Positions 18,505 through 22,235 of a stretch of 64,000 nt of DNA are shown piece by piece (position 1 is the first letter of the stretch; the number at the start of each line of letters is the position of its first letter). Both the position numbers and the translations under genes were made by a program. Below the pieces are notes generated by a model. That model was not told the DNA's origin, searched no databases, and saw only the letters and a list, made by a program, of their open reading frames with translations. The stretch is taken from positions 1-64,000 of the forward strand of contig CANSDP010000001.1 of the NCBI GenBank assembly GCA_947645675.1. The letters run 5' to 3'. This DNA is from an uncultured Bacillota bacterium (GTDB lineage Bacteria > Bacillota > Clostridia > Oscillospirales > Oscillospiraceae).

Positions 18505-19437
18505 TCAGGAGAGGGCGGAGAAGTCAAAGCTGTCCGCGATGGCCTCCAGGCCGGCCCGGTCGATGGGGCCGTCGGAAAAGGTTTCGTCTCCCTGGGTACC
18601 GTCCAGGACGTTGACAAAGAGGAAGCCCTCCTCCAGGTCGGCCCAGATGAAGCTCCGGCTGGGGCCCAGGGACAGCTTCACCGTCACCCCGCACCGGGTC
18701 TGATAGTCCCAGTCCTGATAGTCCTCCAGGCTGCCCACGTTTAGGACCACCGTGTCCAGATAGCCCTTCCGGGCGTAGTGGAACTGGTAGTCCACCAGGC
18801 CGTAGCCGTCCAGGGTCAGGTCGCCGTCAAAGGCACAGGTGCCGTCGTCATAGGCGTAGCCGTAGTAGCCCATGTTTCCCTCCGCCAGAAAGTCGGGACC
18901 AAACCGCTCCAGCCAGGCCTCCCGGCCGGGCACGTCCTCCATGGACTGATGGAGCTTCAGGCCGTATTTTTCCACGATCTCGTCAAACCGTTCCGCCATT
19001 ACATCGTCGTAGACGGAATACATACTGTACCGCCCGCCCTCGTCGTAGATGTCGTTGCTGAAACGGCGGTCAGCGGTATACTCCTGATAAAAATTTTCCC
19101 ACTCCACACAGGCCTGGTTCTCCGGGGTGTTGGCGTAACCCTGGAGGGAGATCATGTCCACCACTCTGTCCTCATAGCTGATGTCGCCGGTGGAGCCGTC
19201 CACATGGGGAACCTGGATGGCGGTCTTTTTCGGAAAAGCCAGGTCCCGCAGTCCGAAGACGTTGAAGGCCACGGCGGCGGCGGTCATGGCCGTCAGCAGG
19301 GCGGCGGAGGCGGCCAGGACGGCCAGGACGCGGGTGGGGGTACGCTGTTTTTTCGTCATTTGAAAGTCCTCCAAATTGATTTGGACGGAGGTATGGACCT
19401 GGGAAAAGACCTCCCGGTAGAGCTCCTTATTCTTCAT
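18505..19437 (-). CDS. Membrane-anchored putative anti-sigma/sensor protein
   Basis: Overlaps 3' end of sigma gene; TM segment VLAVLAASAALLTAMTAAAVAFNVFGL near N-terminus. Confidence 0.6.
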   Translation of the reverse strand: MKNKELYREVFSQVHTSVQINLEDFQMTKKQRTPTRVLAVLAASAALLTAMTAAAVAFNVFGLRDLAFPKKTAIQVPHVDGSTGDISYEDRVVDMISLQGYANTPENQACVEWENFYQEYTADRRFSNDIYDEGGRYSMYSVYDDVMAERFDEIVEKYGLKLHQSMEDVPGREAWLERFGPDFLAEGNMGYYGYAYDDGTCAFDGDLTLDGYGLVDYQFHYARKGYLDTVVLNVGSLEDYQDWDYQTRCGVTVKLSLGPSRSFIWADLEEGFLFVNVLDGTQGDETFSDGPIDRAGLEAIADSFDFSALS

Positions 19438-19912
19438 CGTTCCATACCTCCGTCAATTTTGTTTTCAGCTTCTGCCGGGCGCGGGACAGCCGGGTGGTCA
19501 CGGCGGAGGGCTTGACCTGCAGCAGGGCGGCGATCTCGTTCACTGTCAGCTCCTCATAGTAGAACAGGTACAGCGCCGTCCGGTACCGCTCGGGCAGGGA
19601 CATGACCTGCCGGTAGACCTCGCTTTGCTCCGGCGTCTGGAGCTCCACCGCCGCGGTCACGGCGTCCAAGTCCTCATGCCGCCGCAGCTGGGCCCAGCGC
19701 AGGCCGTTCTTGCACTGGTTGATGGTCACCCGGATGATCCAATAGCGGGCGTGGTTCTCGTTGGCGAAGGATTCCTCACGCTGAAACAGCTTCAGCATCA
19801 CGTCCTGTACCGTGTCGTCCGCGTCATAGGGGCTGCCGTAGTAGTTCAGGGCGATGCGGTATACCGTGTCCTTATACCGCTCGGCCAGGGGGATAAACTC
19901 CGCTTGTGTCAT
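19427..19912 (-). CDS. RNA polymerase sigma factor (ECF-like), sigma A of this locus
   Basis: Region 2 (YKDTVYRIALNYYGSPYDADDTVQDVMLKLF) and region 4 (LPERYRTALYLFYYEELTVNEIAALLQVKPSAVTTRLSRARQKLK). Confidence 0.92.
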   Translation of the reverse strand: MTQAEFIPLAERYKDTVYRIALNYYGSPYDADDTVQDVMLKLFQREESFANENHARYWIIRVTINQCKNGLRWAQLRRHEDLDAVTAAVELQTPEQSEVYRQVMSLPERYRTALYLFYYEELTVNEIAALLQVKPSAVTTRLSRARQKLKTKLTEVWNDEE

Positions 19913-19955
19913 GGTATGTCTCACGCTCTTTTCTCTTGGAAGGCCTTCACTAAGA

Positions 19956-19983
19956 ATACACCTGTTGAAGCTCATTTGTCACA
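19956..19983 (-). promoter_or_regulatory. Predicted ECF-type promoter 1 (TGTGACA-N14-GGTGTAT)
   Basis: Minus strand TGTGACAAATGAGCTTCAACAGGTGTAT upstream of sigma gene 19427..19912. Confidence 0.75.
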
Positions 19984-20035
19984 GCAAAATAAATTTTTTA
20001 ATAGCCAGCGCCCCGCCGGAAGGCGGGGCGCTGAT

Positions 20036-20599
20036 TTAATCATTGGACAAAACGTCGTCCACAAGAAAACGGATCTGCGAACACTCCATATTCATCCTGT
20101 GGTACAGCTCCTCCTGTTCCGGGTCCTCGGTATTCCACTGGACATCACTGGCGTAATTCATGCTGTAGGTGCCTTTCTCTGTAGAGAACAAGTAGCGGCA
20201 GGGGACCGGCGAGATATCGTACAGCTCCTCCGGGGTCATGGGCCTGTCGTAGGACCGGTCCACATAGAACAGCGTCCCGCCCCAGTTCGGGTCCTTCTCC
20301 CGGATTGATTTAACATAGACCCAGGTGACGCCCCCGTCAACCTCCACGTCATACAGGCCCTTCCAGCTGTCGGGAAGGATCAGCGTCAGGCCGATGTCGG
20401 GCAGTTCGATGGTCTCCGCCGGGGCCTCCTGGCCGGAGGCCAGTGCTCCCGCGGTGAAGCTGACAGCCATCAACGCGGCCACCGCCGCTGCGGCCAGAAG
20501 GCGGCGCAATCCGCCTGCACCCCTTCGACGGTACCTGGCTCCCTCGATCAGCTGGTCATCAATGTTTCCAATACGGTCGGCAAATTGTCTCTCATTCAT
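20036..20599 (-). CDS. Putative anti-sigma / membrane sensor
   Basis: 4-bp overlap with upstream sigma gene; RRLLAAAAVAALMAVSFTAGALASG TM segment. Confidence 0.6.
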   Translation of the reverse strand: MNERQFADRIGNIDDQLIEGARYRRRGAGGLRRLLAAAAVAALMAVSFTAGALASGQEAPAETIELPDIGLTLILPDSWKGLYDVEVDGGVTWVYVKSIREKDPNWGGTLFYVDRSYDRPMTPEELYDISPVPCRYLFSTEKGTYSMNYASDVQWNTEDPEQEELYHRMNMECSQIRFLVDDVLSND

Positions 20600-21153
20600 A
20601 GCTCAATTCCCTCGCTTTCTAAATAATCCCGCAGCTTTTGGCGGGTATGGTAGAGCATAGACTTCACCTTGCTCTGGGAAAAGCCGGTGCGGCGGCAGAT
20701 GCTGCTGATGGAATCGAAATACCAGTAGCGGCGGATAAAGACCGTCCGCTTTGTCTCCCCCAACGTCCAGAGAAAGCGGTCGATGGCCTCCTCCACCCGC
20801 TGGTTTTCCAGCTCATCCTCCACACTTGGCTTCCCGGATACGCAGTCCCCCAGCTCCTCCAGGGAGCAGACGGTCTCCCGGCTGCGCTTGGCGGCGGTGA
20901 GATAGTCAAAGCGTTTCAGCGCCAGGTTCCGGACGATTTTTCCAATAAAGGCGGAGAAGTGGTTGGGCCGCTGGGGCGGGATGGCGTTCCAAAGCCCCAG
21001 CCAGGTGTCGTTAACGCACTCCTCGCTGTCCTCCGGACTGGATAGGATGTTCTGGGCGATATACTGGCACAGCCGCCCGTACTTCGCCGAGGTTTCCCGG
21101 ATCGCGTCCTCCGCCCGCTCCCAGTAGAGGTCAATGATCTGTTTGTCTTCCAT
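20596..21153 (-). CDS. RNA polymerase sigma-70 family (ECF-like) factor, sigma B of this locus
   Basis: MEDKQIIDLYWERAEDAIRETSAKYGRLCQYIAQNIL...EECVNDTWLGLWN...KRTVFIRRYWYFDSISSICRRTGFSQSKVKSMLYHTRQKLRDYL. Confidence 0.9.
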   Translation of the reverse strand: MEDKQIIDLYWERAEDAIRETSAKYGRLCQYIAQNILSSPEDSEECVNDTWLGLWNAIPPQRPNHFSAFIGKIVRNLALKRFDYLTAAKRSRETVCSLEELGDCVSGKPSVEDELENQRVEEAIDRFLWTLGETKRTVFIRRYWYFDSISSICRRTGFSQSKVKSMLYHTRQKLRDYLESEGIEL

Positions 21154-21276
21154 TGCGCACCACCTTTTTTCAATTAAAAGCGCTTTCACTCTTATTGTAC
21201 GGTTTTTGCCGGGAAGGTCGCAAAATTTCCGGAAGGGAATTTCGGTGGAGCGCCCGTGGGCGGCTGATAGCTAAGG

Positions 21277-21304
21277 ATACACCTCAAACACATGGTTTGT
21301 CACA
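21277..21304 (-). promoter_or_regulatory. Predicted ECF-type promoter 2 (TGTGACA-N14-GGTGTAT)
   Basis: Minus strand TGTGACAAACCATGTGTTTGAGGTGTAT upstream of sigma gene 20596..21153. Confidence 0.75.
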
Positions 21305-21341
21305 GATCAAGAGATATTTTTTAGAAATGTTTTTCGGCTTC

Positions 21342-21369
21342 TGTGACATTTTTCCCCTCTCAGGTGTAT
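21342..21369 (+). promoter_or_regulatory. Predicted ECF-type promoter 3 (TGTGACA-N14-GGTGTAT)
   Basis: TGTGACATTTTTCCCCTCTCAGGTGTAT, 35 bp upstream of lipoprotein ATG 21405. Confidence 0.75.
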
Positions 21370-21404: not shown

Positions 21405-22235
21405 ATGAGAGAAAGAATACTATACAGGCTGTTGACCGCCTTGTCCTATGCCCTGACCCTGGCGCTTGCCTTGGCCGCCTGCGGACCCAAGAGCGGGCCG
21501 GCAGTCTCCCTTCCCACCTCCGGCGGCGCGTCCTCCTGCCTCTCCCCGTCCGAGAGCGTACCGCCACAGCCCGCCTCCCCCCAAGAGCTGGGGGCAGACG
21601 CGGCCAAGGCCTACCGCAAGGCCCTGGAGGACATCTACAACGACCACATCTATCCCAACGGTGACCCGGTTGAGCTGCTGCCGGGCGGGCAGATGGAGGA
21701 AAACCATTTTGCCCTCTTTGATGTAGATGGCGACGGCGAGACAGAATTGCTCTATCAAAATGACGACAGCCCCATGGCAGGCATGACAGATAACGTCTAC
21801 AGCTTCAACAAGGACGCCGGAACGCTGTACCTGGAGCTGTCCGGCTTCATAGGCATGACCTTCTACGACAACGGCGCCGTCCAGGTGATGGCCTCCCACA
21901 ACCATGGGCTGTCTGGGCGGGACGACTTCTGGCCCTTCGCTCTCTACCAGTATGACATAGGCGGCGACGGCTACCTGATGATAGGCAGCGTGGACGCCTG
22001 GGACAAGGATGACTTCCCGGAGGATTGGGACGGCAACCCCTTTCCCGACGAGGCGGACCAGGACGGCGACGGGCTGATCTACCTCGTTACCTACAGCGGC
22101 CAGGAGGTCACCACCGCCACGCTGGACGGGCCGGAGTATGAGGACTGGCTGAACGCCTATGTAGACGGCGCGGCGCGGTTAGAGCTGCCCTGGCAGGCCA
22201 TGACGCTGGAAAATATCCAGGCCGTCGCTCCATAG
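21405..22235 (+). CDS. Putative lipoprotein
   Basis: MRERILYRLLTALSYALTLALALAACGPKSG lipobox; track start at 21153 rejected. Confidence 0.75.
   Translation: MRERILYRLLTALSYALTLALALAACGPKSGPAVSLPTSGGASSCLSPSESVPPQPASPQELGADAAKAYRKALEDIYNDHIYPNGDPVELLPGGQMEENHFALFDVDGDGETELLYQNDDSPMAGMTDNVYSFNKDAGTLYLELSGFIGMTFYDNGAVQVMASHNHGLSGRDDFWPFALYQYDIGGDGYLMIGSVDAWDKDDFPEDWDGNPFPDEADQDGDGLIYLVTYSGQEVTTATLDGPEYEDWLNAYVDGAARLELPWQAMTLENIQAVAP

Follow-up and report, generated by a model that had tools for sequence, protein, structure and literature searches.

A conserved two-block promoter motif at two ECF sigma operons and a divergent lipoprotein gene in an Oscillospiraceae bacterium, most likely read by one of the two sigma factors

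The window analysed here, a stretch of 64,000 nucleotides of Oscillospiraceae DNA, carries two tandem ECF sigma/anti-sigma operons on the minus strand, sigB-asB and then sigA-asA, together with a divergent lipoprotein gene, lip. The sigA gene (19427..19912, minus strand) encodes a protein of 161 aa that scores above the cut-offs of Pfam models Sigma70_r2 and r4_2 and of TIGR02937. The product of sigB (20596..21153, minus strand; 185 aa) is above the cut-offs of Sigma70_r2 and TIGR02937, falls just below that of r4_2 (21.5 vs 25.7 bits), and belongs to a family rich in paralogues, with a relative in 105 of 121 genomes. Both are short proteins with sigma domains 2 and 4 only, the architecture that defines ECF sigma factors.

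Each sigma gene runs into a gene for a putative membrane anti-sigma factor. The start of asA (18505..19437, minus strand; 310 aa) overlaps the end of sigA, and its product is predicted to have helices at the N-terminus, a single membrane helix near residues 35-58 (low confidence) and an outer alpha/beta domain. The gene co-occurs with sigA orthologues, and AsA (alignment A1) is probably the membrane anti-sigma factor of SigA. Similarly, asB (20036..20599, minus strand; 187 aa) overlaps the end of sigB and comes after sigB in relatives; the AsB sequence has one hydrophobic stretch, and AsB is probably the membrane anti-sigma factor of SigB. Searches with Pfam and NCBIfam models found no family above cut-off in AsA, AsB or the lipoprotein, Lip, and PDB sequence and fold searches with AsA gave nothing significant, with RseB at noise level only. 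Proteins of the anti-sigma family are modular, and the 50 open reading frames found extend from 154 aa (some being truncated at contig ends) to 894 aa. In three relatives (L210, L211 and L214), a second, diverged anti-sigma-like gene lies directly after asB, 59-71% identical to AsB over about 145 aa and with an N-terminal sigma-binding part that looks different. In genome G061, the protein encoded 3' of a SigB relative (L105:6375-10001) is at least 1209 aa long. Its N-terminus resembles that of AsB, Ig-like and alpha-2-macroglobulin domains come after it, and the protein is apparently an anti-sigma/macroglobulin fusion.

The motif TGTGACA-N14-GGTGTAT occurs in the window in three exact copies, all within 1.4 kb and all at the places and with the 14-nt spacing given in the original prediction. 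We designate these predicted SigA-type promoters P_A (19956..19983, minus strand), whose -10 box ends 43 nt from the sigA start codon; P_B distal (21277..21304, minus strand), 123 nt 5' of the sigB start codon; and P_lip (21342..21369, plus strand), 35 nt 5' of the lip start codon. P_lip and P_B distal are divergent, with their -35 boxes 37 bp apart. The spacers had been called unrelated, which is true of the three sites in the window but not across species: the P_lip spacer, TTTTTCCCCTCTCA, is nearly invariant between species and resembles the promoter of a SigA orthologue from another genus (L046, ATTTTCCCCTCTCG). An Rfam scan of the region found nothing above threshold, and a PHROGs search returned generic sigma-factor matches only, with no sign of phage origin.

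Chance alone would give about 0.02 exact matches to the 14 fixed bases in 2.46 Mb, the size of the organism's own assembly, against the three found. The genome-wide scan that had been proposed as a check found these three sites and no further one at 0-1 mismatch to the pattern TGTGACA-N15-GTGTAT. When TGTNACA was permitted, one extra, diverged site with a single mismatch appeared on another contig; at up to two mismatches the assembly gave 25 matches and the reversed-pattern control 23, which is to say equal numbers. With the assembly about 82% complete, more targets may be missing from it. Across 251 family genomes, the exact motif occurs at background rate outside this locus, except for a match in G118 that lies directly 5' of a SigA orthologue. 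A broad regulon was therefore rejected.

Conservation of the motif follows SigA. The same two boxes at 14-nt spacing are found 5' of SigA orthologues (42-85% identity) in other Oscillospiraceae genera, generally 33-45 nt and never more than 58 nt from the start codon, and 49 of 54 such upstream regions score at least 10 of the 14 fixed positions, where shuffled upstreams average 8.2-9.3. Training sites for the SigA promoter matrix used below were picked by similarity to the window motif; as an unbiased check, we counted the 7-mers in 50 distinct upstreams taken from SigA orthologues of less than 70% identity. The commonest were GTGACAA (37 regions) and TGTGACA (36 regions, 0.35 expected from shuffles), and in 31 of the latter 36 TGTGACA is followed, at a distance of exactly 16 nt, by the start of a [TC]GT[ATC]T core. 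SigA orthologues are accordingly preceded by a conserved, group-specific -35/-10 motif, and the earlier proposal of an ECF-type promoter, autoregulatory for SigA, is supported. Loss of the motif from orthologous promoters had been named as grounds for refuting that proposal, but the motif is there. A SigA paralogue on contig C2 is preceded by the related TGTGACA-N14-GGCGTTT; crosstalk with other ECF paralogues of the genome is possible, since their promoters resemble one another.

A near-perfect palindrome, TGAAGGCCTTCC (19938..19949, minus strand), lies at the predicted start site of sigA. In SigA-orthologue upstreams (L127-L165, L042-L054) the 12-nt palindrome TGAAAGCTTTCA and palindromic variants of it are conserved, beginning about 6 nt past the -10 box, where transcription is predicted to start. 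The centre differs by species yet is still palindromic (AGCT, GGCC, TGCA or GCGC), and a palindrome with no more than one mismatched pair is present in 35 of 53 upstreams, compared to 0.39 expected. It is not present at the lipoprotein promoter. The element could possibly be an operator or a 5'-end RNA element.

The sigB gene has a second predicted promoter, not in the original prediction, which we call P_B proximal (21195..21222, minus strand; TGCGACC-N14-CGTACAA). A pattern of this type, TGCRACC-N14-CGTACtn, is common to all fetched SigB orthologues (at least 59% identity), linked to SigA or not, at 35-60 nt 5' of the start codon; the most distant orthologue, L013, has it as TGAAACC/CGTATTT. 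With the window left out of their training, the matrices give the three motif sites 24.4 as SigA promoters and -6.6 as SigB promoters, and the proximal site -11.2 and 16.0, respectively. Over the full 64 kb, the three sites alone exceed 10 on the SigA matrix and the proximal promoter alone exceeds 9 on the SigB matrix. P_B proximal probably serves SigB autoregulation, to judge by this conservation. Directly 3' of it lies a cre-like dyad, TGAAAGCGCTTTTA (21175..21188, minus strand); the dyad, TGAAAGCGCTTTTA/C, resembles the catabolite-control (cre) consensus and is kept in most SigB orthologues (L207-L214, L013).

The lip gene (21405..22235, plus strand) encodes a lipoprotein with the lipobox LAAC and an FG-GAP-like domain that has DxDGDG loops. 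Its Pfam FG-GAP and EF-hand matches are sub-threshold, its profile matches the calcium-loop region of YesW (E 3e-6), and a fold search with Lip returned nothing significant. Lip is homologous to a C-terminal domain of some SigA anti-sigma factors: a profile of the Lip domain from which all fusion proteins were left out matches the C-terminal end of SigA-type anti-sigma proteins from G072, G014 and Candidatus Galloscillospira, with E values between 1e-52 and 1e-74. BlaR1-type M56 sensor peptidases also carry the domain as part of their C-terminal region (L090:3486-5741, L092:984-4508). Since three other lineages have the domain joined to their SigA anti-sigma factor, we assign the lipoprotein, by its sequence, to the SigA module. 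Lip homologues of 34-36% identity also lie between gyrB-like and gyrA-like genes in G082 and G074, and one follows a gyrB-like gene in G089 (L089:4335-5171, L091:4410-5264, L088:5053-5871); these gyr-like genes were named by eye from their N-termini.

Sister species show the locus in a different arrangement. In two Lawsonibacter metagenome-assembled genomes (L207 and L208, the same records as L128 and L127) and in Colidextribacter sp. OB.20 (L209, the same as L132), lip and sigA are divergent neighbours with an exact site before each, in keeping with the earlier proposal that the lipoprotein gene is a target, and sigB-asB lies downstream of asA. Four sister genomes have 1, 2, 2 and 2 sites genome-wide, all of them exact and all at this locus. 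The divergent region of L207-L209 aligns with the P_B distal/P_lip region of the window, with the boxes standing out as conserved blocks and 37-40 bp between the two -35 boxes. The alignment pairs P_B distal itself with the sigA promoter of the sister species and takes in the TTGATC and CCTTAGC on its flanks; the palindrome downstream is lost in P_B distal. The single-contig genome G257, 98% identical to the window over sigA and sigB, has one site, a sigB without the distal promoter, and no lipoprotein gene anywhere in the genome. Both boxes of P_A are identical between the window and G257, although the spacer and upstream DNA differ. Since the divergent regions align and the G257 sigB has no distal site, the position of P_B distal corresponds, as far as the alignments indicate, to an ancestral-type sigA promoter beside lip that would now read into sigB. 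The distal sigB promoter appears to be a former sigA promoter moved before sigB by rearrangement.

We consider it very probable that the motif is the SigA promoter, through which SigA would drive sigA-asA, lip and sigB-asB, with a one-way hand-off to SigB; SigA alone is its most likely reader. The original prediction was wider, that one or both sigma factors read the motif and form a cross-wired pair. Its SigA half is supported. A mutual arrangement has in its favour that the motif precedes both sigma genes and that SigA and SigB are both ECF factors with the same promoter geometry of two 7-mers and a 14-nt spacer, but the promoter that SigB orthologues keep differs in both the -35 (TGCRACC) and the -10 (CGTAC), and the window sites score negatively on the SigB matrix. 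Furthermore, SigB orthologues unaccompanied by SigA lack the motif, and genomes with SigB but without a SigA orthologue (best match 38-44%, paralogue level) have motif matches at background only, whereas G032 and G070, with no close SigB, nevertheless keep the exact SigA promoter. Because the matrices split the two classes and the motif follows SigA in both kinds of genome, we prefer one-way control from SigA to SigB. Mutual regulation by SigB failed both the matrix test and the co-occurrence test and was rejected, and we regard a cross-wired pair as improbable.

There are two further readings. P_B distal might be a silent relic of the ancestral sigA promoter, left behind by the rearrangement, with P_A and P_lip the only working sites. 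Its alignment to the sister sigA promoter, the vanished palindrome and the G257 sigB that lacks a distal site would all suit a relic, but all 14 box positions are intact despite divergence of the spacer, and a terminator looked for between P_B distal and sigB was not detected. The sister species' sigB is also downstream of a sigA promoter, so that SigA-driven expression of sigB fits both layouts, and we judge the relic unlikely, if somewhat less so than cross-wiring. Least credible of all, in our view, is a conventional regulator that binds the motif at housekeeping-sigma promoters. The boxes repeat at a distance of 21 bp, two helical turns, and P_A and P_B distal agree with a weak housekeeping promoter in 9 of its 12 positions; P_lip, however, has no such match, and the boxes sit at a fixed -35/-10 distance, 33-58 nt from the start codon in nearly all orthologues. 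The -10 half, moreover, differs between the sigma families while the geometry is constant.

Under one-way control, AsA would hold SigA until an outside signal releases it. Released SigA would transcribe its own operon, sigA-asA, and the divergent lip, so that the lipoprotein would be made in step with AsA, and would also transcribe sigB-asB from the distal of the two sigB promoters. SigB, presumably restrained in turn by AsB, could then continue from its own proximal promoter. The domain fusions and the modular nature of the anti-sigma family make the lipoprotein plausible as a separately supplied sensor part. We suggest, tentatively and at somewhat less than even chances, that it serves as a sensor or feedback subunit detached from the SigA anti-sigma factor, whose outer C-terminal part in other lineages is the same domain, and that it is expressed from the divergent SigA-type promoter, exported separately and acts on AsA signalling. 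If so, the ratio of sensor to anti-sigma factor would be set by SigA activity.

Much of this circuit is of a known type. Autoregulated ECF sigma/anti-sigma operons with group-specific promoters have been described (Rhodius et al. 2013, PMC3817407); there, as here, a sigma gene is followed by a membrane anti-sigma gene and preceded by a two-block -35/-10 motif that is conserved within a group and different between groups. Here, by contrast, three identical sites lie at a single locus, and one of them precedes a second ECF operon, which has also kept a promoter of its own. In its discussion the same paper considers that ECF factors may form sigma-sigma cascades, so the wiring proposed here, with the promoter of one ECF factor before the gene of another, is not a new kind; the downstream sigma factor in that scheme, however, has no autoregulatory promoter, while SigB has both. 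In the RseA-RseB pair of the E. coli RpoE system (reviewed in PMC8103513), as proposed here, a separate exported protein is made with the anti-sigma factor and possibly touches its outer domain. Neither AsA nor Lip has significant fold or sequence similarity to RseA or RseB, and the link between Lip and AsA comes instead from domain fusions and the shared promoter type. SigV-like models are the nearest to SigA among NCBI families, far below their cut-offs, and SigV-RsiV likewise pairs a sigma factor with an anti-sigma factor of a single membrane helix (predicted in AsA) and an outer sensor domain. RsiV-type anti-sigma factors carry DUF4179, however, and AsA has no match to it at E values up to 1. 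The link between the anti-sigma factor and the lipoprotein domain is the unusual feature of an otherwise known circuit type.

The Oscillospiraceae are abundant in the gut and encode many ECF sigma factors per genome; SigA-like matches number up to about 30 in a single genome of the family. In our literature searches we came across no experimental study of ECF promoters from this family. One sigma family now gains a defined promoter and a predicted target list of three operons, drawn from an assembly of the completeness given above. The two promoter classes offer a clean test of SigA against a second sigma factor, and the exchange of a domain between anti-sigma factor and lipoprotein provides a concrete hypothesis as to how such a module may sense its surroundings.
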